Assembly (NCBI RefSeq): GCF_964204865.1
Contig: NC_135250.1
Span: 22,311,395-22,375,394, forward strand
Length of the DNA stretch: 64,000 bases
Direction: 5' to 3'
Origin: Styela clava
Lineage: Eukaryota > Chordata > Ascidiacea > Stolidobranchia > Styelidae
The number at the start of each line of letters is the position of its first letter. Positions within the stretch are counted from its first letter, which is position 1. The position numbers and the translations under genes were made by a program. Positions 2,310 to 64,000 of the stretch are shown in pieces. The notes beneath the pieces are model-generated. The model was not told the DNA's origin and searched no databases. It was given only the letters and a program-made list of their open reading frames with translations.

Positions 2310-2353
2310 AATAGGCATACCGTGAAATTTATCGAAAAGGTTGGGAATCACTG
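1704..2353. mobile_element. Candidate non-autonomous hAT-like element
   Basis: The left end CAGTGTTTCCCAACC (from 1704) is nearly the inverse complement of GGTTGGGAATCACTG (ending 2353), with 14 of 15 matching. This CAGTG-TTCCCAA type of end is usual for hAT elements. No clear 8-bp target duplication is visible, and the right end also resembles sequence kept in other units (near 19890), so the boundaries are uncertain. Confidence 0.35.
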
Positions 2354-2518
2354 TGTTATTACGGCATCGATGCGTAATAAGGTTTTACCGTGTACTCATG
2401 ACATTTTTCTGACATTAATATTTTAAAATATATTTATTGTTCCAATGCTAGATTAAGCGATTTAGTTGATATCAATTTCGGTATTATTAGTTCAATTTGC
2501 TTCAGTAATTATTCCAAT

Positions 2519-5500
2519 ATGGCGAAGTTCATGGTTGTATTACTATCTCTCACTTCAGTGGGTATGCTCGCCTCCTGTGACATACCGAATGTTTTCGAGT
2601 TTTGCACTGCTCTCATGTCTGACAGTCAGAAATCTTGCAATACGGCGACATGTCAAGGAAGGCCAGGCAAGAGAGGCCCAGTTGGCCCTCGAGGAAACAA
2701 AGGTGTAAAAGGTAACACTGGCGCAACAGGGACATCGGAAGCACTTGAAGCAAGAGTAAGACAATTAGAAGGTAAAAGTCGTATTTATCTTGAAGTACTT
2801 TTGAATTAAGAAAATTTTGGTAACTTTGTTTCTATGTAGCTGTGTTTAGTAAAAGAATTTACCAAATTTTTAATAATTATTGAAATAATACCAAACTGCA
2901 TTTGTTAGACACCTATTAAAATTGTATTATCTGAATTGCCATGTGTAGAAGTGAGATACAAAACAAAATTGAACCGGTTTCTACACAAAAAAACAGAACA
3001 ACCCATTTTTGCTTATTTTTTCTGAATATTGTAAATAAACGTTATTAAAAATGATTTATTCGAATTAGTCTTTTTTATTGCAACTATATGCTCTGTTTAA
3101 CAGATACAATTATCATAATGAAGAAAGTATTCACACCGAATCAGAAACGTAAGAATTTATATATTTATTCTAGCTAATTTAAGGGTATAATATATTACCC
3201 AGTGATTCCCAAAGTGGGCGATATCGCCCCCCAGTGGGCGAAAACGATACAGAGGGGGCGAAAAAGTCTTAGGGGGCGATAGGGGGGCGATTTTGCGAAA
3301 CCTGTTTTATGTTCGGCGCACTTAATTCTGTACTCTGTGTGCATTCGCAGGCTTGAATCACGTGGGCGATTATCACACGCGAAAGGATTTCTGGTCTCGT
3401 CTTCGCAGTAAGGCAAGGTAGTTTGCGTATCTCAGTGGTCGGCAAAATACGGCCGGAATAAAATAATCTGGCCCGGGACGATTCACTGAATGAACCTTTC
3501 CCTGACCTTTGACCGCGGAAAATTCTTCCCATACTTTACCATTTTAAAATTTTCGGTGCTTATTTTAAGAGTGGTTTCGCGAGTTGTTGCCTGTGAAATG
3601 GGGTATTTGTTTCAAACTATCATTCTAATACACACCATTTAACAATCTGTTTTTTAAAAGTACCGATAAAGAATTTTAGCCTAGTCTATCACAGCTATTT
3701 CTACACTAATTTTTGATTGCTGTATTTAAACTGAAACTCATAGTAAGACAAAGTATTCATTGACTTATTTGATTTATATTCAATTTCCGAAAAACAACTA
3801 AAAACTAACGAATATAATTCAAAAACGCGAAAATGAGGTAATGTTCACGACCACGCCTGAAAATCTGTCTGAGTGAGAGTGTCTGAGCGGATGCGAAAGG
3901 GGGCATTGTTACGTATTTTGCATCTTGCTGATTGGCCAATGTCACGAAGTAAACAAGGAAGTCTATGCCCGGGGAAATATCCAAACGGCGGTTTTGACGA
4001 TGAATTTTTTTTTATTCATAATCTACGCTCGAGGAGTAAATTACATTTTTTTACGTAACAGAATAAATCGCGAGACACGTTTATACCGAATTATACTATA
4101 TCCTAACAATTTAGTGAACAGCCACTCGTTTAACGAGCCTACAATTTAATTATAATTAGACAAATGGAAACACGCAGAAAAGTTGATGCTGAGTGCAGGG
4201 GTTCAATAGCGCAGTAAATATTCGAATATATTGCAAAGCAATAAGGAAATAAAATTCATATTCTATTCGAGAGATTGATCACTGCATAATTTTTGTAAGA
4301 ATGTATCTTCTTAAAGAAAATATTTATCAAAATTTCACAAATCATGCTGAAATATTCACTTCGATGTTTGGAAGTACGTATTTGTGCAAACCATTATTTT
4401 CGAAAATGAACATTACAAAGAACAAGCAAAGAAGTGGGTTTGGTGATGCCCATTTAGAAAATGTTTCAATCTTGGCGTCGTAAAGCTATCCAGCGTGATG
4501 CAGCAACAAGACAGTGTCACATTAAATGTCATTGTAATATTTTTTTAATAAGACGACTGAGTTGAGTTCACGAATTGTCGCAGTTTTTGCGCGCTGTTCC
4601 GTTTTTAACTTTCGAAAAATATATGCGATCCGCAAAATACTAGCAACCCTGAATTTGTCCTGCGAGCGACATAAAATTTGCCGACCCCTGGGCCGTAGCC
4701 GATAGTCAGTCACGTCTTCTTCCACATCCGAGTCTATGAATCAAAAACAAATGGCTGGTTAATTATGAACTGGTGATCGGACTGAAGGCCGTGATAGGAT
4801 GAGGAATCGGGAATGAATTTTTCCGAAGTTTTTTGGTGCAGGTCATCAGGCTGTACGAATGAATGAGATGTACGAAAATCATTATTATAAGTTTGGGAAA
4901 ATCAACTTTGGTTTTATTATTTTAATGTGAAATGGGGTGGATTTAGGAAGTGAAATGCTATAAGACAAGAGTACACGGCGATTTTTGAGGAAGTGGAACC
5001 TTGGATTTCCGACCTATTATATGGTAAAAAGGGGGGTTTTCAGCCCGGCTACTATTGCTATTAAAACAACGAAATCACCTTTCCATCAGTAAACGGGGTA
5101 ATTTTAGATATAATAAAAAAAACTCGCTGAAGAACACCAAGCTCATTTATCTCATTAAAAAACACTATAAACTATAATTTGTCTTCTTATTTGGTCTGTA
5201 ATATATTCGTTTCTGACTTTATATTTTTTTGTAGTACAGGGGGGCGATGAAGTTGTATAAACTACTTTAGGGGGGCGATGGTCAAAAAAGTTTGGGAAGC
5301 ACTGTATTACACTACTTATAATATATTACACTATAACACTATATTATTAAAAACGACTATACTAAGTCGTGAGAAAAACGTGATAGACAAAGATGGCTGT
5401 CGGCATTCACAAATTGGTTTAATGATAGGCATAAAAATCGATGTCAATATTTTGAAAGAATATCTTCTATAAATATGTTTTTGTGACGACCACTTACAAG

Positions 5501-7833
5501 TTCCAAAAACAACTCTAATGTGATAATCTGAATTTTCTTTCAAATTTCTAAAAAAAAAATTTATCAAAGCATTTCTTTTAAAATCCAAATTTTCGAGATG
5601 CAAAATTTGTTGAGATGCAAAAATGTTTAAAATAAAAACTGAGATTGATCACATCAAATTACTGACAATCGGAGTATTAATACAAATTCCTAAATGGTCT
5701 AATAATCGAGTAATACATCAAATGTTTCTCACAGTCGAATTTTGCGCAATGGGCATGAAGTCCAGAGACATTGCGGATGCAGATATTTCAACCTCTTCCG
5801 ATTGGGAAAGTTTTCATCATGGACAATATGGAAGATTAGATGAACAGCCTGCATCAAACCCAACTTCCTATGGAGCATGGATTTCTCGAAAACGTGAGTT
5901 TTAAAGTTTCTGAGTGAAATGCGATTATTATCGTGTCTTGATATTGCCAGATTATGCACTTCGTGGGTATCGATGCAGCATTTTTATGACAGAAGAGAGC
6001 AATGCTCAAATATATGGGACACGAAAACCAAAACGAAGTAGCCTAGTACTGGTATTAAATCTTTTTGATACGACTCCGTCTGACCACCAGATGGCTACGA
6101 TTTCTAACGCGGAACCGCCACAAATGCAATTTTTAATTTTGATGAGGTCATCACACAAAATCCAAATTGACAAGCAAATCCGATAGAGCTCACAGAAATT
6201 TTGCAAATAAATAAAAGTAACTGCCTTCATGCGATAACAACAGTCTCTAACCACTGCAATGTCAGTGCAATTAGTCTAGCTAGTAGTTGAAGAGAAAAGC
6301 GATTTTTTTCACGAAACGAATACTAAAAACAACAACAACATAACGAGAATATCGGTCAGAGACCGAAAACTTATCGATCGAAAGTTAGGGGATCCCCCAA
6401 AACAGAAACTGCGGTTTCGATTCGAAAAATTCTGCAAACCCGAACTGGATTGTTTTGATTAGTTTTCAGCCAATATCAGAAATGTAGGAAACAATACTAC
6501 TCGAGGAAATACTTTTATGAAGAATTCTGCAAATCCGAACTGGATTGTTTCGATTAGTTTCCAGCCAATAGCCTATTTCTGTATTTACTAATCCTATAGT
6601 TTGTGTCAAATACAACGGCGCTAACCCAGGTTGCGACGGCTATTCAAACACAGCCTAGCGATATTTTGGTGAGGAATTCTGCAACCCCGAACCTGATTTA
6701 GGGATATGGACATTGCTTAAACTTTAAGGAGTAATTATAAGTAACGAGATACGATCTCGCGGCGTGTATCCTTCGCTCTGACTCAATAGTGTGGAAAATT
6801 TCTCGAAGGAAACTTGCGCATCGCGACGACGTCAAAGTTACAAGAGAGATATGGACAAGGCTCAAAGATTAATCACGAGATACGATCTAGCGGTGTGTAT
6901 CCTTCGCTCTGACTCACTAGCGTGAAAACTTGCGCATCTGATACGCACACACACATTCAGCGCGTCTCGAAAATCTCTCGATTTGTGAAAATCCAGATAT
7001 CTTCATCACTAATTAATTAATAACTCGCTAATTATACGACATAATTCATCCAAAATCAATAGGCTTCTGGTCCGAGATATGATGAATGCACATGCAAAAT
7101 TTGGAGCAGATTCAACCACGCCTTCGTGAGATATCGCGTGCATCTAACAGACACACAGACAGACATACATACAGACATACAGACAAATACCTATCAATAT
7201 ACTTACCGATCTTAAGATCGATAAGTAATAACAAAACGATATATAGGTCCATATTGTGTCCAATAATATAAAAATATTAAATAAAATATATACCAATATA
7301 TTTTCGGGATGGTTTATAATACTTGAAATGTAAAAGAAAATCTCGCATCAATTTATACCAATTGTCAAATGATGTTTTTCTTTTTCGAACGCTAGATTGA
7401 AATTTTAGTTTTTCTTTGAACTCTTTTGTTTCAGCTCAAATCGGAGACTGGATTCAAATCGATTTAAAAATTCCTAAAGCAGTGTCTGGAGTTGTAACAC
7501 AAGGTAGGCCTAGTTATGATCAATGGGTGACTTCGTATAAAATCAAGTGCGGAAATTCTACAAACAGTTTCCAAATCATCATGGAAAATAATCAAGAGAA
7601 GGTAGGCACATTTTGTTGTAGGTTCAATTTAAACATCTAATTCTGTATTTAAGATTGTATTTAATATACTTTACCAGGTATTTCCGGGAAATAATGACCG
7701 AAATACTAAAGTCACAAATATATTTCCCAATCCAGTGGTTTGCCGCTACGTGCGACTCTATCCACAGCGTTGGCACGGACATTTGAGCATGAGAATGGAA
7801 ATACTTCGTGGAGAATGCTACGATTTCTACTGA
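2519..7833 (+). CDS. Secreted collagen-like / F5/8C (discoidin) domain protein, unit 1, intact (259 aa)
   Basis: Five exons: 2519-2771, 3104-3148, 5735-5893, 7435-7601, 7678-7833 (TGA 7831-7833), phases 1,1,1,0. The ATG opens a hydrophobic signal peptide (residues 1-20). A Cys-rich segment (C20, C29, C40, C45) precedes eight Gly-X-Y triplets (residues 47-71), then a short heptad-like helix (EALEARVRQLE, 74-84) that could act as a trimerising neck. Exons 3-5 encode one F5/8C domain, residues 103-255: CAMGM near its start, SYGAW, GDWIQIDL, VTQGR, DQWVTSYKI, RYVRLYP, and a final Cys in GECYDFY that would pair with Cys103. The plan resembles ficolins and collectins but with a discoidin head. Such domains bind phosphatidylserine or sugars in other proteins; the ligand here is unknown. 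It is the only intact one of four copies. Introns 2 and 3 carry large insertions. Confidence 0.85.
3200..5304. mobile_element. hAT-like element in intron 2 of discoidin copy 1
   Basis: Ends CAGTGATTCCCAAAGT (3200) and AGTTTGGGAAGCACTG (ending 5304) are inverted, followed inward by G-runs of the GGGGGGCGAT type on both sides. The same intron in units 2-4 lacks the 2.1 kb, giving three empty sites (for example near 20730). A target duplication around TATTAC is imperfect. No intact transposase frame is visible, and a second element appears nested inside. Confidence 0.7.
3433..4690. mobile_element. Second hAT-like element nested in the first
   Basis: The left end CAGTGGTCGGCAAAAT (3433) matches inverted TTTGCCGACCCCTG (ending 4690), and both are flanked by GGCC-rich sequence. 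An internal stretch at about 4163-4300 resembles, inverted, a stretch at about 22290-22440 in the element of discoidin copy 2, so the two are related. No clean 8-bp duplication is seen and no complete transposase is readable. Confidence 0.5.
6346..7228. repeat. Insertion with internal direct repeats in intron 3 of discoidin copy 1
   Basis: Units 2-4 join directly where unit 1 has this block (ACAACAACATAA ... TAATAACAAAACG). A 45-base motif beginning ATTCTGCAAA occurs at about 6430 and 6525, with a third partial copy at about 6675. A second motif around GTGTATCCTTCGCTCTGACT occurs at about 6760 and 6895. A simple ACAGACATAC-type run lies at about 7148-7190, with the palindrome CGATCTTAAGATCG near 7208. 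This looks like a transposon or satellite-derived insert; its family is not recognised. Confidence 0.55.
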
Positions 7834-8621: not shown

Positions 8622-11600
8622 TTATTCATTTATGTTCCAATCTTGTTTTATCATTTCTGATGCCTTCCGTCCAATCATGTAACAAGGAGCTTGTGTGTTA
8701 GATGACGTCACATGGGGCATGACTGATGCATCGACGACTCTTAGGCCCTCAACATGCCGGACCCTTCAAAACGAAATAAAGAGGTAAATAATGCGGACCG
8801 CTCCAACAAAAATACTAAACCATGTAGTAAATAAGGATTCTTTGTTTATTGGATTGATATAAAATTGTATAGAGACATATACAAGTTCAGTTATGATAAC
8901 TTTGTCATATAGTTTGATTGTAAATAACCAATATATATCAAAAGAAATGATTGACCTACCTAAGTCTTTCGTCAACAACTGCCATTTCATCATCTTCTTG
9001 TCCTATTTTAGCAGTACAACATGCGTGTGCTCCAAACCCAAAACTTTTCACGTAACATCGATAAAATTCATCGGGCCTTGAAAATAAATTTTTGTTAGGG
9101 TAGTGGTTTAGTGTCAGTAGATTTATTAATTGTTTGAAACATGGCACATGAATAACTAATTGTTAAATTCAGTTTTTCATTCATTCAGTAGTTATTTTAT
9201 AAAGAAAGTATGATGAACTTGGATTCAATATTTAATTGCAGTTTGCTGTCACGCTAATGTTTAAATTGTTCATCCATCCAATGCAAAACCAAGACGGTTT
9301 TTGCTTTTTACTGAATCGTCTTCTATAAAATTTTGTCATGCTTTACTCGCTGTTGCATAGATGTAAGTGGATGGATACTTCACAAAACCCTAAAAATTTT
9401 CAACAGCAGCAGGCGCAGATATTACGTGGGAGAAATATTACCTGGGAGGGTTAGTGTAGAGCGATCCATTGCATACTTCAGGTGCAACATCATCCTAAAT
9501 CCAATTTCTTTCATTGTTTTTGTCATTTCGAACTCTTCAAGCTTTCTAAATCCTAAAAAAGGATTTCTACGTTGGAACACCAGAAAGGCAAGATTTTATG
9601 CGTTTATTGCATGTATGCAAGAGATCCTAACTACTTCCTTTCTTGTTTCGCGCAATTTTGACTTGCAGGAAAATTTGCTCGTGATTGAGCGTGCCAAATT
9701 GTTGTTGCCAGACCCGAAAAATTCTTTTTATACTATACCATTGCAAAATTTTTGGTGCTTATTTTAAGAGCGGTTTCGCGGGTTGGGTTTCCTCCTTTCT
9801 TTTTTTTTTATCTGTGTTTAGCCTGCGATTAAATTGATTACTGCAATTAAATTAAAACTCCTACGAAAACGAAATGATCATTGAGTTCCTTATTCATACA
9901 TAAATTTCCGAAACAAAACTAAAAAATAACCAATGGCATGCAAAAAACATAATATGATAAAATGTTTACAACCATGCCTGAAAATATCTGAATGAATGAC
10001 AAAAGTTTTTCAGTATAGACTGGGGGATGCGATACGGCCTAATACATTTAGAGCCTCAACCTTAATTAATCCGACACAGCAAGTTGGGGAATAGTATTTC
10101 ACGCCATTGCCATCTACTGGGTAGTACGTACAGTATGAATATTATATTTGAAGAATAGTTTCATTATTTCAAATGGATAGATATATGAATGTATTGGTCT
10201 CGGAATAGATTTACCTTCTATGTGCATCTTTATATCATCTTCTTCCGACAGATAATTTGGATCAATAATAGGCTGATCTGAAGGATTCGTCGACTTTAAT
10301 CGAATTTCACCTTTTGATTTGGGATGCTGAACTCCTATTATCGAATAGGTATAAAACGTATGCTAAAAATAAAAGCAGTTGCAATATTAGATAAAATGTT
10401 ATGGTTGAACGGTGGTACTTCATACTTCGTGGAAGCACATATATATTCCTGAAATGCCAGATTCCTCCCTTTCTTCATGTTCGTAGTACAATCTTGATAT
10501 AAGTCCTTTACTGTACAAATTTCACATTTTGTCAATATCTCTCGTTTCATTGAATCAAATACAGTACATGAAGATCAATAATGAGTCATAAAACTGAAAG
10601 CAGGTTTGTACCATTTGCATCTAATATCGTCAACATTATAAATTTATAAACTTGATATTGGACTTTAAAATATTGTATTTGGCTGATTTCAATTCTTTTC
10701 AATAAAGACAAAAAGAGCAGTTCGAAGCATTGAAATTGAGAAATTGAAATCTGAAAAGCTCCCATATATAATAATGAATTTCTTACGTTTTCTTTAAACT
10801 TGAAAACCAAAGATAATTTTCCTGAGGCAAAAAGTACTTGAATACTAGGAAATGGCCGTTTTCTTAAAAAAAAAGGATGTTTATTTTACATATCAAAAGT
10901 TTTTATTTGTTTAATTTTGACAGATTGGCCCAAACGAAGCTCAACAAAAAACGCATCCATGTTTTAGCCTTTGCGCACAATAAACACATAAAAGCATTTT
11001 TTGTAAGTTATCGTATCCGCCATAGTTTATACATTGTGAATTGTTTTGTTCGTTAATTAATTTGAGTTTTTTGATCGGAAAACTTAGTAATGTATTAGGA
11101 AAGGGTTTCAAAATTTTGTATCTTGAATGCAAAATTATTCTGAGTTCTCTTATTAAAGAGTTATTCATGATCCAAATTATTATAGGCCTATTGACTAGTT
11201 TAAATTTTTTCAGCAACACAAATGCTGCGCAAAATATATAGAAATGGTAGCAATATTTGAATACATTTACAAAGCACATAGTTTTAAAAAATTCTTTTCA
11301 AGTTGCTTTGTAAAATATTTTGCTACAATTTGCTTACTTGCTGCTTAGAGTTACGTTAGTTCCAAAATATTTAGTCTTATGATGAAGAACTATACTGCCA
11401 CCCACGACTGCTGAGTTGTGTCCGGTACCGTCCATGACGTAGTCCGTGATAGATTCCGGTGTCTAAACATTGGTCTCAATTTAATTTGCGATATGTGACA
11501 TTGCTCCTCTCCCACAGATATCTAAACTGTAGTTATCAATTCCACAATATCTGCGAAATACTGCTTAACTTACCATATCTGTTGCAATCCGGCTGTCGTT

Positions 11601-14600
11601 TGTGGCGTGATAGACGAAGTGCCCAAAATGATCCTGAAAATTAGCTCCCACGCCTGGCATATCCCTCACAACTTCTATCTGGAAGGCAAAAACACTGCAG
11701 TCTGACATTGAAATGTGTGTCATGGTTTACGATTTTAAGGTATGTTTTACCAAAGTCTTGTGTTTACTTTTTAAAAAAATAGTCAAATATTCGTAGTGAA
11801 ATATTTGTAGATATTTTAGAGCTTAAGAATCTTTCGATATATAATCTATTGACACAACACGAATCTCCCACATGATTCTTTTACTCAGATATAAAAGATC
11901 AAGGTATCAGCGCTATTCTAAAAACGGCTTGAAGCTTAGAAAACTAAGTCAATAAAAACAAGTAAAAGTTTTTCGCTTAATTTTTTGAACAATTTTTCAC
12001 GAATATTGAAAACTATAGATAATACATGTATTACATTTTAATTCTTTTTCCGCAAATGTTATGAAAGTAAGAGTCTACCTCCATCTCTTCAAGGTGATTT
12101 TTCGGGCCGATCCCCGACAACATCAATATTTGTGGAGTTCTCAGTGCACCAGCTGATAAAATTATTTCTTTTCTGGCCCTAACGTTGCTTATTTTTCCAT
12201 TTTTTATGAAACTTACGCCTGTAGCTTTTTGTTTACCGCTTTTTCCAGTAACAAAGTGAATCTTGCTTACAAGTGCCTTTGTTACAATGTGCAAACTTCT
12301 TTGTCTATAAGAAATATATTCGGATTTTATACTCTGTGGCAATAATTTGCAAAATAAACACAAGCTTCAAGTTTTTAGTCCAAATCAATTTGCATTCAAA
12401 TATTTAAAGAAGTAAAATAATTAGATACCTGAAAAATACAAGTTTGTATCGAAATTGTGCGAGCAGATGCAGATTGAAAACTTGAAAGGGGTATTCACTC
12501 GTTACGGAATTTCGAATCGCGTTGGGTAAAATAAGCTAATCGAGTGAAATGAAATATTGGATACGTAAGGTATTTAAACGTAACTCAATGTGTCGTAACT
12601 CGATGTATATTTTTTATAGGATCTACACGTTTTACCGTTCTTTATATCCCGATCGCAAAAACGCGTCTGAGGACGATTGTCTTAGTCCCTTGTATCTGGT
12701 GCAAATAAGTGAAGATATACCATCAATTTCATCAACATAGTCAACTTCCTTTATACCTTTGTATATGAAAAAACGTAAATACATTTCCGAATTTTCCAAC
12801 ATCAAACTAGCTAACTTTATACATATTATTTAAAGATTAAATTCTAATTAGATACAGCTACTCATCTGTCTGTTTCATTTTTTCAATACGTCCTCACCGA
12901 TTTCTTTTGCCGCCGTCTTCAATTTTGCAGTAAAGAGACTTTCGTAAGAAATTCTGATATTTAGTAAACCTCCTCTTCCGACTTTTTCTGATATTTTGTC
13001 ATCGACGGCGTTTTCATTTTTCCTAAAAAAAGGCTCCACATCTTTCCAACTCCATCCCTTTGCTCCATGATCTTCCCAAGAATCATAATCATGTGAACTT
13101 CCTCTCAAGTAACACATGGCATTAATTGATGTTGATCCACCGAGAATTTTTCCTCCGCAATATTTTGAATTCTAACAAAAGACATACACTTCAGACATAC
13201 ATTTCAGTTATAAGCGCCTTTCAACTTACTACGTTTTGCATGCCGAACTGGAAATATTGATATTACGGTACTTTCAAAAACCTGCGGAATCCTATCCCGG
13301 TGCAAAGTGTAAAACACATAAAAAGAAGCATTTAAAGGGGGTAGTTGTTATTTTGTCTCTTTTTTGCATACGAACTTTCAGTGTGCCGGCAGGTGTGTGT
13401 ACATCATATACTTCGGAATTACCCCGCAGTGGAAGCTTACACAGAGCCTTGTTATGATTGGAGGGTTAAAAACAAAATGTATCTAATTTGATTACCTTTC
13501 CTATTTCAAGCAACGAATATTTTTGTTTGGCCATGTCGTAGTTCCAATTATAAGGAGATTGTTGCAACATGCCATATGTCATCGCACTGGGAACTAAAGG
13601 ATTGTTGTAATCTGAGTCACCCGCTTCCAATAACAACACTCTGAACACAATAAAGACCATTGATGAACAGAAAGTTATCTAGAACAACAATCATGGATTC
13701 CGTTTTACTCCGTATTCATATTAGATTCTATAGTAGAGCAGGTTAAAAAAATTGGAACAAGATATTATGGTACATATAGTATATACCAGGGTGGTCCAAA
13801 CCCAGGCCCGCGGGCCACTTTTGGCCCGCAGCTTCATTTCTGTGCCGCGCGTCGCATTCGCAGAGTAATCATTTTTGTGTTGTTTCGTCATAAAATTAAC
13901 CAGAAAAATCTTATGACATCTTGTTACAGCAATAATGTCACTGAAATTGACTAGTGTTATGGCTAGCTGAGGCAACTGACGAAGTTGAATGATGGGCTTG
14001 GCAGTCTAAATTGTTATCTGGCTTTATATCGTTTTGGTCAGGAATATATGCTAACAATTTTGGCATCATAGAAAACTTAAAATCGAATACGGATTCCATT
14101 AGCCTAGGTTGGCGCTATGCCTGATAACTAAATATTAATGTTATGGCCGAACAATATTAGGCCTTAACATTATGGTCTTACAATTCGTGCCTGGTGTTTT
14201 TATCAACCAGCCTAAATAGTATTACAAAAAATGTTGCCTATATATCAGAAAGTTTATTAATTACCATTCTGTACCTCACATTGTGTAATCAATCAATCTG
14301 TAGTTATATATAAGTCATTTCGTAAACATGAGTTTGAGAATGAAAACTGACGAATTCAAACAAATTTTTAACTGGATGTGGGAGGAAAAATATCACAATT
14401 CTTTCTTGATATGTCTGCAAGTTGTGTCGGTGAAAAAAACAATTGAATTTTAAACGGCATTTTAGAATCTTGTGAGCAATGAGAATTTTCCAAAGTTAGG
14501 ATTTTGCATTGAAAATCTATCGATGTTCGAAAGCACTTACATATGCGAAAGCATTTTTTTCCGTAATGAAGAGTTTGAAGATCATGCAATATAAGTAGGA

Positions 14601-15551
14601 GACTTTTGCAGGTTTTAGTTAATTTTTGTGGTGGTTTTTGCATGGGTTAGCTCTATAAATTCAATGTGTTTGCGCAATAAAAGTGTTTGTATTGTATTGC
14701 ACTGTTTAGCTATTCTTAGTACTATTGTGGCCCGCGAACAAAGCAAAAATAATTTTGTGGCCCGTGGAGCCGACAACCTTAGACCACCCTGGAATATATA
14801 CATTGTAAACATATGTATTGTACAGAGACACATCATCTTTGTTAGTTTTTGGTCCATGGTACATTTTTTTGTACGTGTAACAGAAGGACAGAGAATATTA
14901 ATTAACCGAACTCACATATTTAAAAAAATATATAAATGAGGCAAAATTTTGCGAGTATGCAGAACATACCGTTTTCATTTCACTCGTTTATTATTACATC
15001 TATATTCATAAATTGTTAGGAAATGTTGGATGCAAAAGCTCATTGAAAATATGCAATAAGTTGGGTAAAATATGGTAACTGATGGTTGTTTCTTGAAATA
15101 TTTTTTCCACAGTAATAAAACATTTAAGTTTCTTCCAATTCTCAATCATAATACAATGCTCACGTCATCCCAGTTTTGTCTGAGAGTCCTCTCGCAACCA
15201 CAGCTCCAGATGCACCTGCCCCAACTACAAAAAAAGAAGAAAATTCATTGGTTTCCAAGATGACTGAGTTATGCATGTAGTACTGTGTCTCTATAAAAAT
15301 TTTTGCAACTGACAAAGAGTTATTGAAGTCGTATACACGAATACTTGAGTAATGATAATAATACTAATCCTCAAGTCGCACCATATATTACTTTCGTGCC
15401 TGAACAAACGCTTTTTGTGCTTCAGATAAATCAATGATCACTCACCAACAATAAAATCGTATTCTTCCGATACATCGTTCGTTATCATCGGGTCGTACGA
15501 CTTCCGTGCTAGTAGAGTCAATAGCAGAGCGACTAATGTTGACTTGATCAT
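8622..15551 (-). pseudogene. GMC oxidoreductase, unit 1: 13 exons, +2 frameshift in exon 11
   Basis: FAD-dependent glucose-methanol-choline family. Exons (minus order): 15551-15446, 15224-15164, 13640-13496, 13171-12898, 12744-12636, 12304-12079, 11678-11574, 11462-11338, 10862-10787, 10362-10215, 9552-9442, 9076-8960, 8763-8622 (TAA). Phases join in every case except exon 11, which has two extra bases at about 9484-9488 relative to the other three copies, so the frame after GFRM is lost before the catalytic region. Otherwise the FAD motif GAGASG, both GMC signatures and the catalytic His exon are well kept. A cryptic GT (CTGAA|GTATGC) just past the lesion would restore frame while dropping about 11 residues, so a shortened product cannot be excluded. 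Intron 2 contains a hAT-like insert. It diverges from scramblase 1 by about 2.1 kb. Confidence 0.75.
13797..14791. mobile_element. Non-autonomous hAT-like element in GMC 1 intron 2
   Basis: Ends CAGGGTGGTCCAAACCC and AGACCACCCTG are inverted, with GGCCCGCGGGCC-type sequence just inside the left and GTGGCCCG at the right. The flank GTATATAC (left) reappears as ATATATAC two bases past the right end, consistent with an altered 8-bp target duplication. Units 3 and 4 show the uninterrupted site (AGTATATACATTG near 44930 and 60380). A 3'-truncated copy sits at the same place in unit 2. Confidence 0.75.
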
Positions 15552-34537: not shown

Positions 34538-34741
34538 CCTCTTTCATGACCATGCAGTATCACGTGCTGAAAGAGCAAAGGGTAAGGGTAGCAATGTATG
34601 CAAATTTGTATCGAGAGTTTTCTGAAAAGCTGGCTCAGTTGAATATAATGTACTTATGCGCAACTCATCTAATAGTTCGTTGACTGGCAATTAAAATTTT
34701 CAATTCATTTCTAACTCGAACTAGATAATTACTATTTTTTT

Positions 34742-51446: not shown

Positions 51447-51681
51447 CAGTAAATTTTCGTTGTTAGAATTTTGTTATTCCAATACTCTATGGCCAACTTT
51501 TGATCTTATATTGACTTGTTGTGATGTCATGGGTACTGCTAGATAACCACTAGACTGATATGTCATAAACCCTTGTACCGTAAAGAGAAAAACTTAAGTT
51601 TAACACAGCACAACACGAGACAATCGCAGCGGAATCGAGAGAAATAGAGAACCATGCGGACAGGAAGAAGCCCAAGGCAAT

Positions 51682-54149
51682 AGACCTTATTCATTGAAAA
51701 CCCATCCTACGCGCAAAAAGAAAGGTGATGTAAAAAAAACAATTTTAACATTAGCTCTTATGGGGAATGTGATCACCAGAGCAGAAATTTGCATTTTTTG
51801 TAATTTTCTAGGTATCTTTCATTGTGTACGTGAGCAGTTTTGAAGATAGAATATTTTTTACATCTTTTTTGATATTTTTATCATGATAAACATGGTCAAG
51901 ATTTTTGATAATCGTTCATTGAAATTTTAATGAGCGCGGTGTTTCCGATGACGTCATTCTCACCAGACCACGAGATTCTGCCAACGCGTCGTGCTCTGTG
52001 GGATATGCGTTCCAACTGCTTGTGATAACAGAATACTGAATACCGGTACCGGGACCACAACTGGCGTTCAACGAAAGACCTATTTTGGTTTTCATTGGAT
52101 GTTATATATTTCATGAATTCCATGTAACTATGTACATTTCTGGTACACCTTTCAAAATCCAATGGCCTAACTCAGTTCATATGTTGACACCATGTACCTA
52201 TCCTAAAATTGGTGATGTTCAGGGCTGGATTTTAGACCATGAGAAACCCCTTCATATTTTGGATCTCGGAATTTTTCTCTAAACAACACCACATTTAATT
52301 TCTTAAAATTTAAAAATATGAGTGCATTAAACTTTTCATTCTCCCCATTCATGGGTGTGAATTTTTAATTAAAAGAATAAAAATTTACTTGAGGCAGTTT
52401 GCTTTCAATTTCTTTGATCAAACAACCGCTACAGTCATACTTTAACCAATGACAATGTCATTGCTTTAACATAGAAACTTCCAGCAGAATGCGCATAATA
52501 ATAATTTCCCTTATTATGATGCAAACGACGCAATAATGGCTGTTTACAATGTGGTTGAAACCAGTTGTGTACAGAATTTTCTATTCTGAAATGCTTGATA
52601 TATATATATACTAAGTATTCAAAAGAATTAAAAACTTCGAAACCGAATTTCGAGGCTCTAGGTTTCAGCCTGCCTGGCCTATTGGTAAATCCAGCCATGG
52701 TGATGGTCCCTACAGCAAATTTCTGGCCCTAATCACTCAGCAGATTGAAATAAATGGTTTTCAGCATTTATTAGCAAAGATAGATATTTTAATTAAACAT
52801 ATATTTCAACTTAAAGCCTGTATAATGATATTATAAATATATGTCCCATTATTACTGCAATGTGAGAAGGCTTTCCACACTATCAAGTCTATGAGGTTTT
52901 AGCGTCTTCCAATGTCTCAGATGGAAACTTCAGTCTTCATTTCGCATATTCTTTTCATTAATGCCGTTAGCATTTGAAGCTTGACTGATTCCAATGTACC
53001 TTTTCCATTGTTGTTTAATGTAATATCCTAAACGCGACTTTAAATTTTTTTCTCACTTCAATCATCACATGTTTGAATACGCGAGCTGTCTTCTACTGAT
53101 TTGTTATTAATTTACAATTTTTTTATTATAAATTAACTGTCGTACTTGCTAAGTGTCCACTATGTGAAAATCTACAAAAAAAAGCAGTGGTTTAATAATG
53201 GACTACATTTTTAACCGAATCCAAAAATGTTCCGTAACTTAGTCAACCCTTCCTCCAAGGAGTTTTTGTTAAATTGTTCAAACATCTTAAGTAACTGTTA
53301 ATCTTGATAGCGAACATGGGGGGCAGGGGGAGCTGACTGTGATGGTCGTATCGCTCCCCAGTCTATACCGAATAACTGTGTGTTTTGTATACAATTTTTA
53401 TTGATACAATGCTTGTATTCTGGTTGACAAAATAAATCTCTCACTCGTATTCAGTCATGTTTTTTAACCTAGTTAGGAGACCGGTATTGTACCATAATAG
53501 GTTGGAGATATTCATCTTTTTTGTATACCGGTACCGTACAACTTATCCTGCCTATTGGCAGGATGGCCAACATTTTTGTTCGTAGGCCTATTTCAGTATT
53601 TACTAAATAATTTAGTTTTCACCTCTTGCAGCCTTGGTACGGTACCAGTAGTTTAAATAACACGTCAGCATGCCTTCAGTAAATGATTGCTAGCTGTACA
53701 GGTATAAATGCGTAAAACCAGTAAAAAACGTGATAGAAATGGTATGGGTTATAGATTGTCAATGTTAAACGCTTCCAGTACCGGTACCGTACCCAAAGCG
53801 ACATTAGCGCTGCATTTGGAGCGCATATCCCACAGAGTACGGCGCGTTGGCAGAATCTCATGGTCTAGTGAGAATGACGTCATCGGAAACACCGCGCTCA
53901 TTAAAATTTCAATGAACGATTATCAAAAATCTTGACCATGTTTATCATGATAAAAATATCAAAAAAGATGTAAAAAATATTCTATCTTCAAAACTGCTCA
54001 CGTACACAATGAAAGATACCTAGAAAATTACAAAAAATGCAAATTTCTGCTCTGGTGATCACATTCCCCATAAGAGCTAATGTTAAAAAAAAAATTTTTA
54101 CATCACTTTTCTTTTTGCGCGTAGAATGGGTTTTTAATGAATAAGGTCT
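51682..54149. mobile_element. 2.47-kb foldback-type element with about 340-bp terminal inverted repeats
   Basis: The left arm (51682-52020) begins AGACCTTATTCATTGAAAAC and the right arm (53811-54149) ends GAATAAGGTCT; they are inverted copies with scattered differences. In units 2 and 3 the site is uninterrupted (CAAGGCAATTATGAG), so the insertion is specific to unit 4 and consistent with a 2-bp AT duplication. The central 1.8 kb has no recognised transposase; open frames at 52085-52282 and 52435-52698 resemble nothing known. Probably non-autonomous; superfamily not assigned. Confidence 0.85.
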
Positions 54150-54672
54150 ATTATGAGAAAACAATTATGACGTCATAACCTCAAATCTAGTTACGGTTGA
54201 CAACCGACGAATCGATGAGAATCAATGAAAATGTTTCATGAAACGCTAATTCTCCTAATAATTCTTATTAGAAATAAGATGGCACGCAAAGACGCTTGAT
54301 TATAGACGCTTGCCATGAATGTTAAACATTTACACCAAGGGTCGACAATTACTTCTCAATCGCGAATCGGAAAGGGATTTCAAACTTTCGTGGCCCAAAC
54401 CTTCCGTTGGTTACTGGATGCAACAAAATTTACTGGTTTATGCTTCTTTAAACTTCATAGAATAAACTATGATATAATTTATCATACAACCGATCTATTT
54501 GAATAAAACAACTTTACTTAACCGATCAATATTGCTTCCATCTCTTCAAACGGCTTTTTACAACTATTGACATTTGGTGCGTTTTGTTATACTGCACTGA
54601 GCAACAGAACCAATTGTCGTATGCATCATATTATTTATTTATTATACGTTTCCATCCATGGAAAAATGCATT
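54150..54672. other. Convergent intergenic region, unit 4 (remaining part)
   Basis: Follows the foldback element and corresponds to about 8110-8621 of unit 1, which it matches better than it does units 2 and 3 (CTTCCGTTGGTTACTGGATG near 54402). Minus-strand AATAAA lies near 54635. No gene seen. Confidence 0.5.
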
Positions 54673-57600
54673 TCATTCATTTATGTTCCAATCTTGTTTT
54701 ATCATTTCTGATGCCTTCCGTCCAATCATGTAACAAGGAGCTTGTGTGTTAGATGACGTCACATGGGGCATGACTGATGCATCGGCGACTCTTAGGCCCT
54801 CAATATGCCGGACCCTTCAAAACGAAATAAAGAGGTAAATAATGCGGACCGCTGCAATAAAAATACTAACCCATGTAGTAAATAAGGATTCTGTGTTTAT
54901 TAGAAAATTGTCATAAAATTGTATAGAGACATATACAAGTTCAGTTATGATAACTTTGCCATAGTTTGATTGTAAATAACCAATATATATCGAAAAGAAA
55001 TGATTGACCTACCTAAGTCTTTCGTCAACAACTGCCATTTCATCGTCTTCTTGTCCTATTTTAGCAGTACAGCATGCGTGTGCTGCATACCCAAAATTTT
55101 TCACGTAACATCGATAAAAATCATCGGGCCTTAAAAATAAAATTCCGGTTAGGTTAGTGGTTTAGTGTAATTAGATTTATTAATTGTTTGAAACATGGCA
55201 CATGGATATCTAATTGTTAAGTCCAGTTTTTCATTCAGTCAGTAGGTATTTGATAAAGAAAGCATGATGAACTTGGATTCAATATTTACTTGCAGTTTGC
55301 TGTCACGCTAATGTTTATATTGTTCATCCATCCAATGCAAACCAAGACGGTTTTTGCTTTTTACTGAATCGTCTCCTATAAAATTTTGCCATGCTTTATT
55401 TGCTGTTGCATAGATGTAAGTGGATGGATACTTTACAAAACCCTAAAAATCTTCAACAACAGCAGGCGCAGATATTACCTGGGAGGGTTAGTGTAGAGCG
55501 ATCCATTGCATACTTCAGGTGTTATCAGCCTAAATCCAATTTCTTTCATGACTTTTGTCATTTCGAACTCTTCAAGCTTTCTAAATCCTAGAAAATGAGT
55601 TGATAAAAATTGCTTTTATACCTTACCTTTGCAAAATTTTAGATGCTTATTTTAATAGTGGTTTCGCGGGCCGGGTTTATCTGTTTCAAGCCATAATTCT
55701 AATTCAAAACGTCCAACAACCTGTCATTCAAAAGTACCGATAGAAAAGTTGGCGCTCCCGAAGTATGTACACCATGATGGCGCACAACCTGAATCCTAAC
55801 CTGCTACAACTACTATGTTCAGGTTGTGCGCCATCTTGGTGCACATACTTCTGGACGTCGAAAATGTTTAGCCTATTTTATCATAGTTCTAGATTAATTT
55901 CTGATTACTGCACTTAAACTATAAACTCCTACGAAGACGAAATGATCATTGAGTTATTAATTCATTCTTAAATTTACGAAACAAAACTAAAAAATAACCA
56001 ATGGCATGCAAAAACCAGAATATAATATAATGTCCACAACCATGCCTGAAAAAAATCTGAATGAGTGACGATAGTGTCTGGGCGGCTGCTAAAACATCTA
56101 TTGTTATGTCACTTTTTGCATCTTTTTGATTAGCCACTGTTACAGAAGTCAATGATCAGGAGGAAACATTCATTGGTTCTGGACTGCGTACATGAGAATA
56201 TCGATGTCGCTTGGAACGGTTAGTTGCACACGAAATACACAAATTGATTGTTTCGTTATTATGTTGTTGTTCTTGTTGGACACGAAATGTACATATGAAT
56301 CGTTTTTGTTATTATTATGTTGTTTTTCTTGTTAGTATTTTTATTCTCTTTGTCGTAGTAAAGACATCGATTTCCTCATTACCTACCAAACTACGTGCTT
56401 TGAAATTTTCAGTGGTGAAAATTCGTATTTTTCGCTAAGAGGCTATTAGTTTTATTATTTCAAATATCTCTTTGAGCTCTATGTGATTCGTTTTTCAACT
56501 CAAAGTTTTATGTGGTGACCTCTTCAAAATTGATGAAATTATTTGTAGCGGTTATGAGACCTCTCTCGTGCTACTCCTAGCAGAAGTCGGAAGTTTTTTG
56601 ACCGTAACTGGGTAAAGTATTGTTATGGAGTAACGCACAATACTGCAGACTTTGGTTTTCGTGGCCATATATTTGAGCATCGTTCTCTTTGTCTCAGCAA
56701 GTAGGGGAACGATATTTCACGCCATTGCCACCGGGCAGTACGAACAGTATAAATATTATTCTCGAAGAATAGTTTTATTATTTCAAATAGATAGATATAT
56801 GAATGTATTGGTTCTCGAATTAAATTTACCTTCTATGTGCATCTTTATATCATCTTCTTCCGACAGATAATTTGGATCAATGATAGGTAGGTCAGTCGGA
56901 TTCGTCGACTCTAACCGAATTTCACCTTTTGATTTAGGATGCTGAACTGATAGTATCGAATAGGTATAAAACGCATGCTAAAAATAAAAGCAGTTTCAGT
57001 ATTATTTAAAATATTATAGTTGAAAAGTGGAACTTCATACTCCGTGGAAGCACATATTCACGACGGGCGTTAGAATATTTATCCGAAAGAAAGTTCTGTA
57101 CATTTTCCTGAAATGTCAGATTCCTGTCTTTTCTTCATATTTATAACAACACAACTAGATATAAGTCTTTCATTGTACAAAATTGTCGTAGTCTAGTTCT
57201 TTCAGATGTTGTCAAGATCTCTCGTTTTCTTGAATCGAATACAGCATATGATGATCAATCATGGATCATAAAAATTAAAAACGAGTTTTCAACATCTGCA
57301 TCTAATAACGCCAACATTATAAATTTATAAACTTGATATTGAACTATATAAAATATTGTATTTGGCTATGTTAATTCTTTTTAATAACGACAAAAAGAGC
57401 AGTTTCAATCATCGAAAATCTGAAAACTCTTACATATATATCAATACTAAATTTCTTACGTTTTCTTCTGACTTGAAAACCAAAGGTAATTTTCCTGAGG
57501 CAAAAAATGCTTGGATACTAGGGAATGGCCGTTTTCTAAAAAAAAAGTTATGTTATTTTACATATCACAAGTTTTTATTTGTTTAATTTTGGCATATTGG

Positions 57601-60600
57601 CCCAAACGAAACTTAACTAAAACGCATACAAGTTTAAGTCTCTGCACACAATAAACACATAACAGTAATTTTTGCAAGTTATCGTATCCATCATAGTTTA
57701 TACATTGTGAATTGTTGAGTTCTTTAATTAATTTGGGTTTTTTGAGATAAAACTTAGTAATGTACTAGGAAATGGTTTCAAAACCTTGTATCTTGAATGC
57801 AAAATTATTCTGAGTGTTCTTATTAAAAAGTTATTCATGATCCAAATTATTATGGACCTATTGACTAGTTTAAATTTTATAAAAAATATATAGAAATTGT
57901 AGCAATATTTGAATACATTTACAAAGCACATAGTTTCTAAGAAATTCTTTTCAAGTTGCTTTGTAAAATATTTACTGATATTTGCTTACTTGCTGCTTAG
58001 AGTTACGTTAGTTCCAAAATATTTAGTCTTATGATGAAGAACGATACTGCCACCCGTGACTGCTGAGTTGTGTCCGGTACCGTTTATGATGTATTCCGTG
58101 ATAGATTCCGGTGTCTAAACATTAGTCCCAATTCAATTTGTGATATGTGACATTGCTCCTCTCACACAAATATCTAAACTGTAGTTATCATTTCCACAAT
58201 ATCTGCGAAATACTGCTTAACTTACCATATCTGATGTAATCCGGCTGTCGTTTGTGGCGTGATAGACGAAGTGCCCAAAATGATCTTGAAAATTAGCTCC
58301 CACGCCTGGCAAATCCCTCACAACGTCTATCTGGAAGTTGAAAACACTGCAGTCTGACATTGAAATGTGTGGCATGGTTTACGATTTTACGGTATGTTTT
58401 ACCAAAGTCTTGTGTTTACTTTTTGAAGAAATAGTCAAATATTCGTAGTGAAATATTTGTAGATATTTTAGAGCTTAAGAATCTTTCGATATATAAGCTA
58501 TTGACACAACACGAATCTCGCACATGATTCTATTACTCAGCTATAAAATGTCAAGGTATCAGCCCTATTCTAAAAAAAACAACGGCATTAAGCTTAGAAA
58601 AATAAGTCAATAAAAACAATTTATTCAAGCACAAGCTGTCTCGGAGCGACCAAAATCTTTTGTTTCCATGTAACCACTGGGCAAGACTAAGCTTTTGTTC
58701 CATGTATATATAAAAGTGGTCCGCTTATTTGCTTGAACAATCTTTCATGAATATTGAAAAATATAGATGTTATATAATACATTTTAATTCTTTTCCCGCA
58801 AATGTTATGAAAGTAAGAGTCTACCTCCATCTCTTGAAGATGATTTTTCGGACCGATCCCCGACAACATCAATATTTGTGGAGTTCTCAGTGCACCAGCT
58901 GATAAAATGATTTCCTTTCTGGCTTTAACGTTGCATATTTTCCCATCTTTGATGAAACTTACGCCTGTCGCTTTTTGTTTACCGCTTGTCCCAGTAACAA
59001 AGTGAATCTTACTCACAAGTGCCTTTGTTACAATGTGCAAACTTTTTTGTCTATAAGCAATATATTTGGATTTTATACTCTGTGACAATAATTTGCAAAA
59101 TAAGCACAAAATAAGATTCAAGTTTTTAGTCCAAAGCAATTTGCATTCAAATAATTTTACTCTGAAATACAAAACCAGTGTTCTCTTTCAAGAATTAAAA
59201 TGATTAGATACCTAAAAAATTCAGGTTTGTATCATGTATGTATCAGTGAAATTGTGCGAGTTTTTCACGATCTTACAATTAAGCTGCATTCTGAAAACTT
59301 GAAAATTGTGTTCACTCGTTACGAAATTTCGAATTGCGTTGGGTAAAATAAACTACTCCAGTGAAATAAAATCGTGGATACGTAAGTTTTTTGAACGTAA
59401 CTCAATGTGTCGTAACTCGATGTATATTTTTTATAGGTTCTACACGTTTTACCGTTTTTTATATCCCGATCGCAAAAACGCGTCTGAGGACGATTGTCTT
59501 AGTCCCTTGTATCTGGTGCAAATAAGTGGAGATATTCCTTCAATTTCATCAATATAGTCAACTTCCTTTATACCTTTGTATATAAAAAACATAAATACAT
59601 TTCCGAACTTTCCAACATCAAACTAGCTAACTTTATACATATTATTTGAAGATGAAATCTTAATTAGATACAGCTGCTCATCTGTCTGTTTAATTTTTTT
59701 AATACGTCCTCACCGATTTCTCCTGCCGCCGTCTTCAATTTTGCAGTAAAAAGATTTTCGTATGAAATGCTAATATTTAGTAAACCTCCTCTTCCGACTT
59801 TTTCTGATATTTTGTCATCGACAGCGTTTTCATTTTTTCTAAAAAATGGTTCGACATCTTTCCAACTCCATCCCTTTGCTCCATGATCTTCCCAAGAATC
59901 ATAATCATGTGGACTTCCTCTCAAGTAAACCATTGCGTTTATTGATGTTGATCCACCAAGAATTTTTCCTCCAGGATATTTCGCGTTCTAACAAAAGGCA
60001 AAAGGCACATCATATTTTTCAATTAGACTACTCAGTAATAGATGCTTGTACAAAGCCTTGTTAGGACTGATTAAAATTTTGTACAAAAAATATCTATCTT
60101 GAGTACCTTTCCCATTTCCAGCAATGAATATTTTTGTTTTGCCATGTCGTAGTTCCAATTATAAGAAGATTGTTGCAACTTGCCATATTTGATCGCACTA
60201 GGAACTAAAGGATTGTTATAATCTGATTCACCCGCTTCCAATAACAACACCCTGAACACAATAAAGACCATTGATGAACAGAAAGTTATCTAGAACAACA
60301 GTCATGGATTCCGTTTTACTCCGTATTTATATTAGATTCTGTAATAGAGCAGGCTGGAATAAAATATTATGCTACATTTAGTATATACATTGTAATCATA
60401 TGTATGGTACAGGGACACATTGTTTCTTGAAATATTTTTTCCACATTAATGAAACCAATTAAAGTTTCTTTCAATTCCCAATCATAGAGCAACAATGCAA
60501 TGCTCATAACATATGCTCACGTCATCCCAGTTATGTCTGAGAGTCCTCTTGCAACCACAGCTCCAGATGCACCTGCCCCAACTACAAAAAAAGAGAAGAA

Positions 60601-60993
60601 AATCTAGTGATTTCAAAGGGGGACTGAGGTATGCATATAGTACTGTGTCTCTTTAAAATTTTGTGCAACTGACAGGGAGTTATTGAAACGAGAAAGTATA
60701 CATTTTTGAAAAGAGTTATAGCAACAAGTTTGTTTTAAACAGATTCGTATTTTCAACACATTTGTTAGATACAAAATCTCAGAAATCGTTTACACGAATA
60801 GTTGAGTGATGATAATAATACAAATCCTCAAGTCCCACCATATATTACTTTCGTACAACCGCTCAGATAAAACCAATGATCACTCACCAACAATAAAATC
60901 GTATTCTTCCAATACATCGTTCGTTATCATCGGGTCGTACGACTTCCGTGCTAGTAGAGTCAATAGCAGAGCGACTAGTGTTGACTTGACCAT
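54673..60993 (-). CDS. Secreted GMC oxidoreductase (FAD), unit 4, intact (580 aa)
   Basis: Thirteen exons (minus order): 60993-60888, 60581-60521, 60251-60107, 59987-59714, 59561-59453, 59050-58825, 58330-58226, 58114-57990, 57535-57460, 56977-56830, 55587-55479, 55129-55013, 54814-54673 (TGA). Exon lengths and phases equal those of unit 3 and the frame is open throughout. It has the same signal sequence, GAGASG FAD loop, [24 protein letters not shown] and [11 protein letters not shown] motifs. Differences from unit 3 include LSDIT for LSDKT after the FAD loop, TGTSG for VTVTSG, KICNVKARKE, NHLQEME and STNPTDLPII. No additional TM segment or anchor is visible, so the product is probably secreted or lumenal. 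It diverges from a broken scramblase. Confidence 0.88.
55761..55850. mobile_element. Short perfect-type hairpin (MITE-like) in GMC 4 intron 10
   Basis: AAGTATGTACACCATGATGG and CCATCTTGGTGCACATACTT are inverted arms of about 35 bases around a 20-base loop. The hairpin is missing at this place in units 1-3 (unit 3 reads GAAAAGTTTAGCC near 40300). It contains no gene. Confidence 0.65.
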
Positions 60994-62786
60994 TTTTAAT
61001 AATTTGCCTAGTATCACAAATAGAGAAACGAAATTGGGGATTTTGATGATTATACCAATAATGTTAATCAATCTATCATCTGTTTATCCTAATAAATTCG
61101 AAAATGGAATATATACCCAACATTTAATGATGCCAGACTTATAATGCGAGAATGATGTAGAAAGAATGTAGACAAGTATAGGAATTCTAGAGTCTTGCTG
61201 CACTTCTACTGTTCTAGCATTTAATTTGTGCGCGCCTGGACATCATCGCTAGTTTGTCCTTTTCTAACTTTCGTTCAGTATCGTCATGCACTCCTGATCA
61301 AATACACACACATATTGCATTGCGCTACAACCTGTTATATAGCGCTTAATTATATGCCTCGGGGTTTGAGGTAGGTTTAAGCCGATATTGAAATGACTTC
61401 GATGGGTGTCAGTGTAGAAAATCGTGTTTCCATAAAAAAATCGTAAAGATACGAGACATAAGGTAAATTGATAGGCATTCTGATTTTTCTTAAAATTCTA
61501 AAATTTTAGAAACAGCTTGTGCTGTCGCGCCATTTACAAAATTCATTTGTTTGTCTATGTAACTTCGTGGAGTACCAAGAATTCGTGTCAACAAAAGAAC
61601 ATCACAAAAATATAGTATAGTTGAAAACATTCAATTCAAACGTAAAATTCACGGGTAAATAAAGTGTGAGTTACTCTATAGTTGACAAAGAATCAAAATT
61701 TTTTTTTCAAAAAACATTGGAAATTTTTCATCCTATATATAGAATTTCAAACAAAAATATCATAAATCAATTATCATTTGTTTGCAGTATAAAATGGCGT
61801 ATAATATAGCAACGTCCGAGAGAACCCGAGAAAAAGCGACATGCCTCTAACTAAAACATCTCATTCAATATGAATGGATTGAAAACACGCGACAACAAAG
61901 CTGCCAGTTACAAATTTAATCATAGTCAAACCAATAATTTTTTGTATGGGAAAAATGATCTCCCAGAAATATATAAGATATCGTTTAATTTGGCCCACAT
62001 TATATAGTTATTTAAATATTGATGTAATGGAGCAACAACTATACATCAAATGTTTTTCAAGTTAACCCGGACTGTTGTAGCTATTGTTCAAGGGATGGCA
62101 TCCAACTAATTTCAGATTTAATTTTCTGCTTTGGTAATTCTACATAGTATTTTACGGTTCCCATTCATTTTTGACTAACATTTACCACAAACAGTCATTT
62201 ATTGAATTTAATTAATACTAACCCAAATCATATTTACAAACTAGCACTATCAATATTGGGTAAAGCAATCAAAAGTGGGGCATCATGTATCGAGATTATA
62301 ATCTTGAATTGTAGGATGTCATAATGCGAGAAGTAGTATAATACCAAGAAAAAAATGGATAAAAATGATACGAAATATTCGTCATAAACGGCCACATATT
62401 CCTCATTGTAAGTATGATTAGTTGCAATTCAAGAGTCCCGCTGCACACTAACACAAATATATGTCTTTAACATAGTTGTAAACTGCTTGTCTGACGAAAT
62501 CTGATTTAGGTCAGATGAAACGTCACAGAAATATATTTGTGTTAGTGTGCAGCAGGTATCTTGAATTGCATACGGTATTTTATTCCTGCTACAGCATTTT
62601 TGCATTATACCCAGGGATCCACTAGCGCAAAAGCATTGAGAAAGGACTGGGAGTTAATTTCGCGCAACATCTACTGATAGGTATATTTGAATTACCCGCT
62701 AGATAATAATCTTTGTTGCGTCACAATGATTTGTATTGTACGCTAATTTATTATTATTATTTTGGAGCAAGTAGAAACAAGCTATC
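60994..62786. promoter_or_regulatory. Divergent intergenic region, GMC 4 / scramblase 4
   Basis: Follows unit 3 closely, but with about 245 extra bases at 61445-61690 (from TAAAGATACGAG to AAAGAATC) and the shared hairpin MITE. No core promoter element is assigned. Confidence 0.4.
62430..62563. mobile_element. Hairpin MITE, unit 4
   Basis: Same element and site as 46736-46869. Ends CAAGAGTCCCGCTGCACACT and AGTGTGCAGCAGGTATCTTG; flanked on both sides by AATT (GCAATT left, AATTGCA right), a possible 4-base target duplication. Confidence 0.7.
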
Positions 62787-64000
62787 ATGGATGCCAGTTC
62801 GTTATCATCTCACGAAACCACAGTTGGTGAACTCCAAGAGTTTTTTGTTGTTCAAGAGTATGACAGTGCTGGTGGCTGCAAGAGAGGTTTTTATCAGATA
62901 TTAGATAGATATAACCGACATCACTATTCTGTTACGAGGGAGATTGATTCTGGCAAAACTCCAATCGTGATTCACCTGATAGATAACAAGAATAACGAAG
63001 TATTGAGAATGGAACCGAGGCTTAGGTAATTGAAAAATAATATTTAGTAAATAAATTAGAAAATTTCAAAGTGAATACTTTTACTAGACATGACACATGC
63101 AAAACATGTCTTTAATCTTAATCACCAATTCAGTTTTTTACTTTAAATCCAGATTTACTGGTATTCTGGAGTACCCTGTGAATTAGAAATCAAATCGATT
63201 TTCGATCCGAATTCTCGAATACTTAAATTGATGATATTATGTTTGTTTATTATCACTGATCCTTATATCAGTATACATACGACATTGAACAAGGGAATAT
63301 TAATGTTGGGCACGAAATGGGCAGACAGATCGTTTTGATATTATGGTGCTACAAAATAGCGCACCTAGTGGTTCCGCGTTCGCGTTCGTTACTATCTAAT
63401 GGTCAGTCGAAGTTGAGACGCCTACGATTCCGTGCAACAGATATATATTTCCACTTCAGTGTTCTGTACCGGTACTGTGAAAGATCAGATATCCGTACTA
63501 CTTCGTTTTGACTTTCGGGCCCAAATATTTAGGCATTGCACTCTTGAATTATAACGAATTGAACTCAAAAGGAGAAACGCCCAGCCCCCATTTTTTTCTC
63601 ATCAAAGTTGACAAAGTATTTCTTACCTAAATGAAGACTTACTCATTTGTGAGTTTGATATTTTCGTTGGCTTTCTTGTGATCAAAATTCCCCCCTTTTC
63701 TAGTTTCGATGAACTTTTTTGATAATGAATTTCTTATTTGTTTCCTATTTTTAATGAACTTTATTTCCCTTTCTCGTGAACTTACGTATTGATTTTTTTC
63801 TCAATAGGCCTTGCCATGGATTTTGTTGTTGCTTCAAAGACTGCAGTCACAGTATGGAAGTTTCTGCTAACGGTGAGCTACTTGGAGTGATTCGTCAGGG
63901 GGTGAACTGCTTTCTGCCAAAGCTATCTGTTGAAAAGTCCGGACAAACATTCTTTATTATTAAGGAACCTGGTTGTCCGTGCTGTTGGGTGCGATGAATT
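62787..64000 (+). pseudogene. Scramblase, unit 4: 8-base deletion in exon 2 (cut by window end)
   Basis: Exon 1 62787-63025 is intact (MDASSLSSHETT...), and exon 2 starts at 63808 after CTCAATAG. It reads like the other copies up to GCPCCW, then lacks 8 bases near 63987, so TGCTGTTGG runs into GTGCGATGA and stops about 50 residues early relative to the helix end. The C-terminal membrane helix would be missing. The end of the exon lies past the window, so a compensating change downstream cannot be ruled out, but the stop follows at once. Confidence 0.75.

Follow-up and report, generated by a model that had tools for sequence, protein, structure and literature searches.

Three unrelated gene families, encoding discoidin-collagen proteins, GMC oxidoreductases and scramblases, recur in close succession within the window, the whole 64,000-nucleotide stretch of DNA analyzed here (C1:22311395-22375394). 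This arrangement raises the question of whether the three genes constitute a cassette that was amplified as a functional set, or whether their repeated order is the passive outcome of duplication.

Four direct units and a fifth, inverted unit

A self-blastn comparison of the window resolved four head-to-tail DNA units that start near positions 2326, 19868, 35278 and 48942, with the strongest match (4101 bp, 98.2% identity, bit score 7081) lying far beyond chance. Gene models were built with a custom spliced aligner; the GMC model was refined by comparing five copies, and lesions were examined at the DNA level for the collagen exons and a number of GMC positions. In all four units, these models place a discoidin-collagen gene on the forward strand, followed by a GMC oxidoreductase gene on the reverse strand and a scramblase gene on the forward strand (Table 1). 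The starts of the GMC and scramblase genes face each other head-to-head, at a spacing of about 1.0–2.1 kb. The fourfold direct array and the common order and orientation that the original prediction had proposed are thereby confirmed, and the segmental co-duplication is borne out by the self-alignment of the DNA. While the four units are real, the description of four cassette copies does not extend to whole genes in every copy, as many of them are broken.

The array also continues beyond the four units to which it had been assigned. Alignment of 100 kb of flank located a fifth unit, inverted, at window-equivalent positions 97135–116474, about 33 kb outside the window. Relative to the direct units it is more diverged, at 76–85% identity in matches of at least 850 bases and about 71–94% in shorter ones. 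Spliced models of the inverted unit comprise two intact collagen copies, an intact GMC gene and a scramblase represented by a frameshifted first exon only. The window has a GC content near 35%, its genes are intron-rich, and no Rfam family was matched in it at gathering scores. The gene families present suggest an animal host.

Table 1. Positions of genes and other features of the array (window coordinates unless a contig is named).
Feature	Position	Strand	Description	Basis
Unit 1 discoidin-collagen	2519..7830	+	4 exons, 246 aa, intact	spliced model, Pfam, alignments, hydropathy
Unit 1 discoidin-collagen exons	2519-2777, 5735-5893, 7435-7601, 7678-7830		splice ends approximate	
Unit 1 GMC oxidoreductase	8625..15551	-	13 exons; exon 11 frameshift near 9493	spliced models, five-copy comparison
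Unit 1 scramblase	17700..19124	+	2 exons (17700-17938, 18725-19124), about 213 aa, intact	spliced model, Pfam, hydropathy
Unit 2 discoidin-collagen copy	20067..23980	+	broken	spliced model, alignments
Unit 2 GMC copy	24707..32155	-	frameshifts 29573, 29101	spliced models, site kinship
Unit 2 scramblase copy	33126..34534	+	stop at codon 5 (33138)	spliced model
Unit 3 discoidin-collagen copy	35477..37522	+	broken, unit 2 lesions repeated	spliced model, alignments
Unit 3 GMC gene	38248..45541	-	13 exons, 584 aa, intact	spliced model, Pfam, PDB
Unit 3 scramblase	47092..48515	+	intact; ATG directly before 47095	spliced model, DNA
Unit 4 discoidin-collagen copy	49140..51480	+	broken	spliced model, alignments
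Unit 4 GMC gene	54676..60993	-	13 exons, 584 aa, intact	spliced model
Unit 4 scramblase copy	62787..64000	+	reaches window-equivalent 64199; frameshift near 63989	spliced model
Putative newest duplicated block	9089..25169	.	16.1-kb, GMC1 exon 12 to GMC2 exon 12; copy follows from about 25170	
Putative crossover interval	25131..25169	.	39-bp tract without differences among units 1-3; lies at GMC2 exon 12 (25157-25041)	
Unit-4-only insertion	51680..54151	.	2.47-kb, 341-bp terminal inverted repeats, 2-bp target duplication	
GMC matches outside the array	C1:21.03-21.06 Mb, C18, C16, C13, C2, C8		3, 3, 1, 6, 3 and 1 matches, respectively	

Predicted products of the three families

The discoidin-collagen product of unit 1 possesses a hydrophobic, signal-like N-terminus, about eight G-X-Y triplets and one F5/8 type C domain. 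The domain is recognized by Pfam F5_F8_type_C (PF00754) at 6.4e-26 and 91.4 bits against a cut-off of 28.2, and the best relatives of the discoidin part in the PDB are neuropilin and factor VIII, with neuropilin-1 at 1.1e-31. Since the Pfam Collagen family (PF01391) scored 20.8 bits, below its cut-off of 27.2, and the triplets number only about eight, we refer to a ‘collagen-like stalk’. The product is probably a secreted protein that combines the F5/8C domain with a short stalk of this kind and would bind carbohydrate or membranes.

GMC enzymes are marked by a G-x-G-x-x-G motif for FAD and by a catalytic histidine with a later histidine or asparagine. The GMC gene models contain GAGASG at the former position; in three PDB alignments, a histidine aligns with the catalytic histidine and the asparagine of SSNTQAP with histidine or asparagine. 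Both the FAD and the substrate domain score above cut-off (GMC_oxred_N, PF00732, 7.1e-41; GMC_oxred_C, PF05199, 1.4e-32), and the top PDB matches belong to alcohol oxidases and other GMC enzymes, the alcohol oxidase 8rpf aligning at 2.6e-75 with residues 29–579 of 584. The product, whose N-terminus is signal-like, is probably an alcohol/choline-type oxidoreductase that depends on FAD. An assignment to choline dehydrogenase proper (BetA, TIGR01810) was rejected, at 328.1 bits against a curated cut-off of 732.1.

Phospholipid scramblases are characterized by a C-terminal transmembrane helix and Ca2+-dependent lipid scrambling. The scramblase models have two exons, with an additional upstream exon possible, and reach 63.9 bits for Pfam Scramblase (PF03803; 1.7e-17, cut-off 25.4) over profile positions 62–220 of 221; comparison with PDB sequences gave no match up to an E value of 1. 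A C-terminal hydrophobic stretch, LISKFLIFSATFLITILFF (mean hydropathy 2.2), is predicted from sequence alone to form a transmembrane helix, and the product is probably a membrane phospholipid scramblase. Intact proteins of the three families probably act independently; the evidence shows no new biology of the families themselves.

Integrity of the genes and selection

All three genes are intact together in none of the five units, the inverted unit included, as judged from spliced models in this assembly. Intact copies (three of six collagen, three of five GMC and, counting the inverted remnant, two of five scramblase) are spread over different units. Within the window, the discoidin-collagen gene is intact in one of the four units, with frameshifts and lost exon parts in units 2–4; the GMC gene is intact in two, units 1 and 2 being frameshifted, and the scramblase gene likewise in two, units 1 and 3. 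The unit 2 collagen copy carries frameshifts in exon 1 (20175) and at 23735, an altered 3′ end, and a non-homologous 5′ half of exon 3; the unit 4 copy lacks four bases of exon 1 near 49308 and shows the unit 2-type exon 3 lesion and a frameshift at 51235. The exon 3 lesion recurs in units 2–4, which makes a read error an improbable cause. Single-base lesions could in part be errors, as for one of the unit 2 GMC frameshifts, which lies at a homopolymer, and for the unit 4 scramblase frameshift. Discounting both suspect frameshifts would leave the collagen gene broken in units 2 and 4, and unit 2 would in addition retain its other GMC frameshift and the scramblase stop.

Pairwise dN/dS values (Nei-Gojobori) were below 1 in 10/10 GMC pairs (0.27–0.40, broken copies included), in 6/6 scramblase pairs (0.38–0.53, the unit 1/2 value resting on three changes) and in 3/3 pairs of intact collagen genes (0.18–0.28). 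For broken collagen copies, the values rose to 1.4 between units 2 and 4 (18 changes) and 1.1 between units 3 and 4 (20 changes). Left out of the selection argument were nine broken/intact collagen pairs (0.60–0.76), which contain non-homologous stretches, and the unit 2/unit 3 collagen pair, which holds two changes only. The values below 1 for GMC and scramblase imply that some copies probably work, and point to constraint on some copies, now or until lately. As pairs with frameshifted GMC copies have values as low as intact pairs, the loss, if real, would be recent.

The dN/dS values below 1 for the GMC and scramblase pairs and for pairs of intact collagen genes are in keeping with a functional cassette, in which the three products would act together, for instance in surface defense or in mucus or matrix cross-linking, and would have been amplified for dosage. 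The order and orientation fixed in 4/4 window units and the close head-to-head placement of GMC and scramblase genes could be read in the same way; however, any segmental duplication yields a fixed order, and the trio has been kept in 0/5 units.

A kinship switch within a GMC exon

Windowed identity showed unit 2 to match unit 1 (mostly 96–100%, one window 91%) across some 16 kb that start near GMC exon 12 and take in the scramblase gene, and to match unit 3 (mostly 98–100%) between the collagen gene and roughly GMC exon 12. At positions 23600–25130 of unit 2, 102 of 106 informative sites group this unit with unit 3; at 25131–26000, 103 of 119 group it with unit 1, the change falling within a 39-bp tract that is the same in units 1–3. 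The unit 2 GMC gene is a hybrid, its 5′ part being GMC1-type and its 3′ part GMC3-type, as would follow from crossing-over between GMC1 and GMC3. So sharp a switch in kinship is the product expected of an unequal crossing-over between these two genes, for which the 39-bp tract in Table 1 is the candidate interval. A newest breakpoint that splits a GMC gene speaks against the three genes having been amplified as a functional set. Inside the duplicated block, dS between units 1 and 2 is uneven (GMC 0.053, scramblase 0.008), which suggests gene conversion or a history more complex than one clean event.

At the 3′ end of the unit 4 GMC gene (54300–55500), units 1 and 4 are alike at many sites, with a transition that is not sharp. 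An older exchange near the GMC 3′ exons of unit 4 is visible there, though not sharply.

The likeness of units 1 and 2 across the duplicated block would also fit an assembly artefact, with at least one unit being an allele or repeat wrongly joined in tandem, so that one of the two could be an allele duplicate or the copy number wrong. The exact recurrence of three discoidin-collagen copies elsewhere (C2:17572214, 17584475 and 17596736, spaced by 12,261 bases twice) lends the artefact some plausibility, those copies reflecting either a very recent duplication or an assembly artefact. By self-blastn, units 1 or 2 share ~84–86% identity with units 3 or 4 in the longest GMC-block matches (a difference of about 14–16%), and unit 3 shares 90–96% with unit 4 (a difference of 4–10%); alleles joined in tandem, the danger named in the original prediction, are unlikely for either comparison and possible for units 1 and 2, at 94–98% identity in the duplicated block. 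Private insertions are present in the units, the 164-kb stretch of window plus 100 kb of flank contains zero N, and the switch in unit 2 matches what reciprocal exchange predicts; we thus regard an artefact as unlikely.

Linkage of the three families elsewhere

The genome was searched over 376,610,584 bases in 379 contigs, with the resulting match lists being lower bounds. GMC exon 4 returned at least 22 matches, of which 17 map to six loci other than the array. Among those listed, the closest relatives form a separate three-copy array about 1.25 Mb away (79–86% over one exon), in which the searches for scramblase and collagen gave no match. Beyond the array, scramblase matches map to C9, C16:4.64 Mb and C8:19.43 Mb; among the 21 listed, none falls inside the six outside GMC clusters, and no second genomic place with GMC and scramblase genes together was found among the matches listed. 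With 150 of 198 candidates scored, collagen exons gave at least 120 matches with E values of 0.01 or less, none of them inside the six GMC clusters and the nearest about 183 kb away, on C2; further collagen arrays exist elsewhere in the genome.

That GMC genes multiply alone at six other places argues against a cassette, as does the single place of linkage among the matches listed. Of the cassette originally read into this locus, the co-duplication stands; the set as a cassette does not, given the lack of any intact trio in five units, its detection at one place only among the matches listed and the breakpoint within GMC, and joint action of the three products is very unlikely. Also very unlikely is a lineage-specific surface-defense or matrix locus whose three products once functioned jointly and which is now being dismantled unit by unit, each unit keeping a different subset.

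Tandem arrays arising from unequal crossing-over with birth-and-death are a general process, and direct repeats, a junction hybrid gene, mosaic kinship and broken copies are all common to such arrays and to this one. In contrast to the usual single-family tandem arrays, the repeat unit here consists of three unrelated families, which is less usual. The excerpts of the literature on the trio or its parts, among the matches listed, describe no cluster of these families, in agreement with the original prediction. In the silkworm, GMC is among the families in segmental duplications and is expanded, according to PMC3735471; the GMC genes described here are likewise segmentally duplicated, but in a different host and with scramblase and discoidin-collagen genes carried along.

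A model for the array

The array is very probably a partly decayed, passive tandem segmental duplication, shaped by birth-and-death of its genes and, in its newest event, by unequal crossing-over. An ancestral locus would by chance have held discoidin-collagen, GMC oxidoreductase and scramblase genes side by side, and would have been copied both in inverted form and, several times, in direct tandem. At least the newest of these duplications most likely resulted from an unequal crossover in exon 12 of two GMC copies, which added the 16.1-kb block with collagen and scramblase genes as presumed passengers. The copies would then have undergone birth-and-death gene by gene, the order and age of these events being those that we infer. 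The array illustrates how a fixed gene order can mimic a functional cassette while probably being passive; gene-by-gene integrity and a kinship switch narrowed to 39 bp at a coding exon are reasons for care when gene clusters are called in animal genomes.

Further features of the array and its flanks

The insertion found in unit 4 alone contains no open reading frame of 120 aa or more and is likely a non-autonomous DNA transposon. At the end of unit 1 (19330–19771) and again at that of unit 2 (34740–35181), a 220-bp internal tandem repeat is present in two copies; unit 4 has a 269-bp one in three copies (49842–50651). At window positions 1–550 are exons that we take, from their motifs, to be those of a trypsin-like serine protease, with GDSGGPL near 390; a presumably CUB-like exon, named on the same grounds, lies about 2.6–3.0 kb upstream of the window. 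Open reading frames in the flanks, at window-equivalent 70506–72385 (L014) and 122515–124139 (L019, L020), resemble retroelement polyprotein or reverse transcriptase, an assignment that we likewise presume from motifs.
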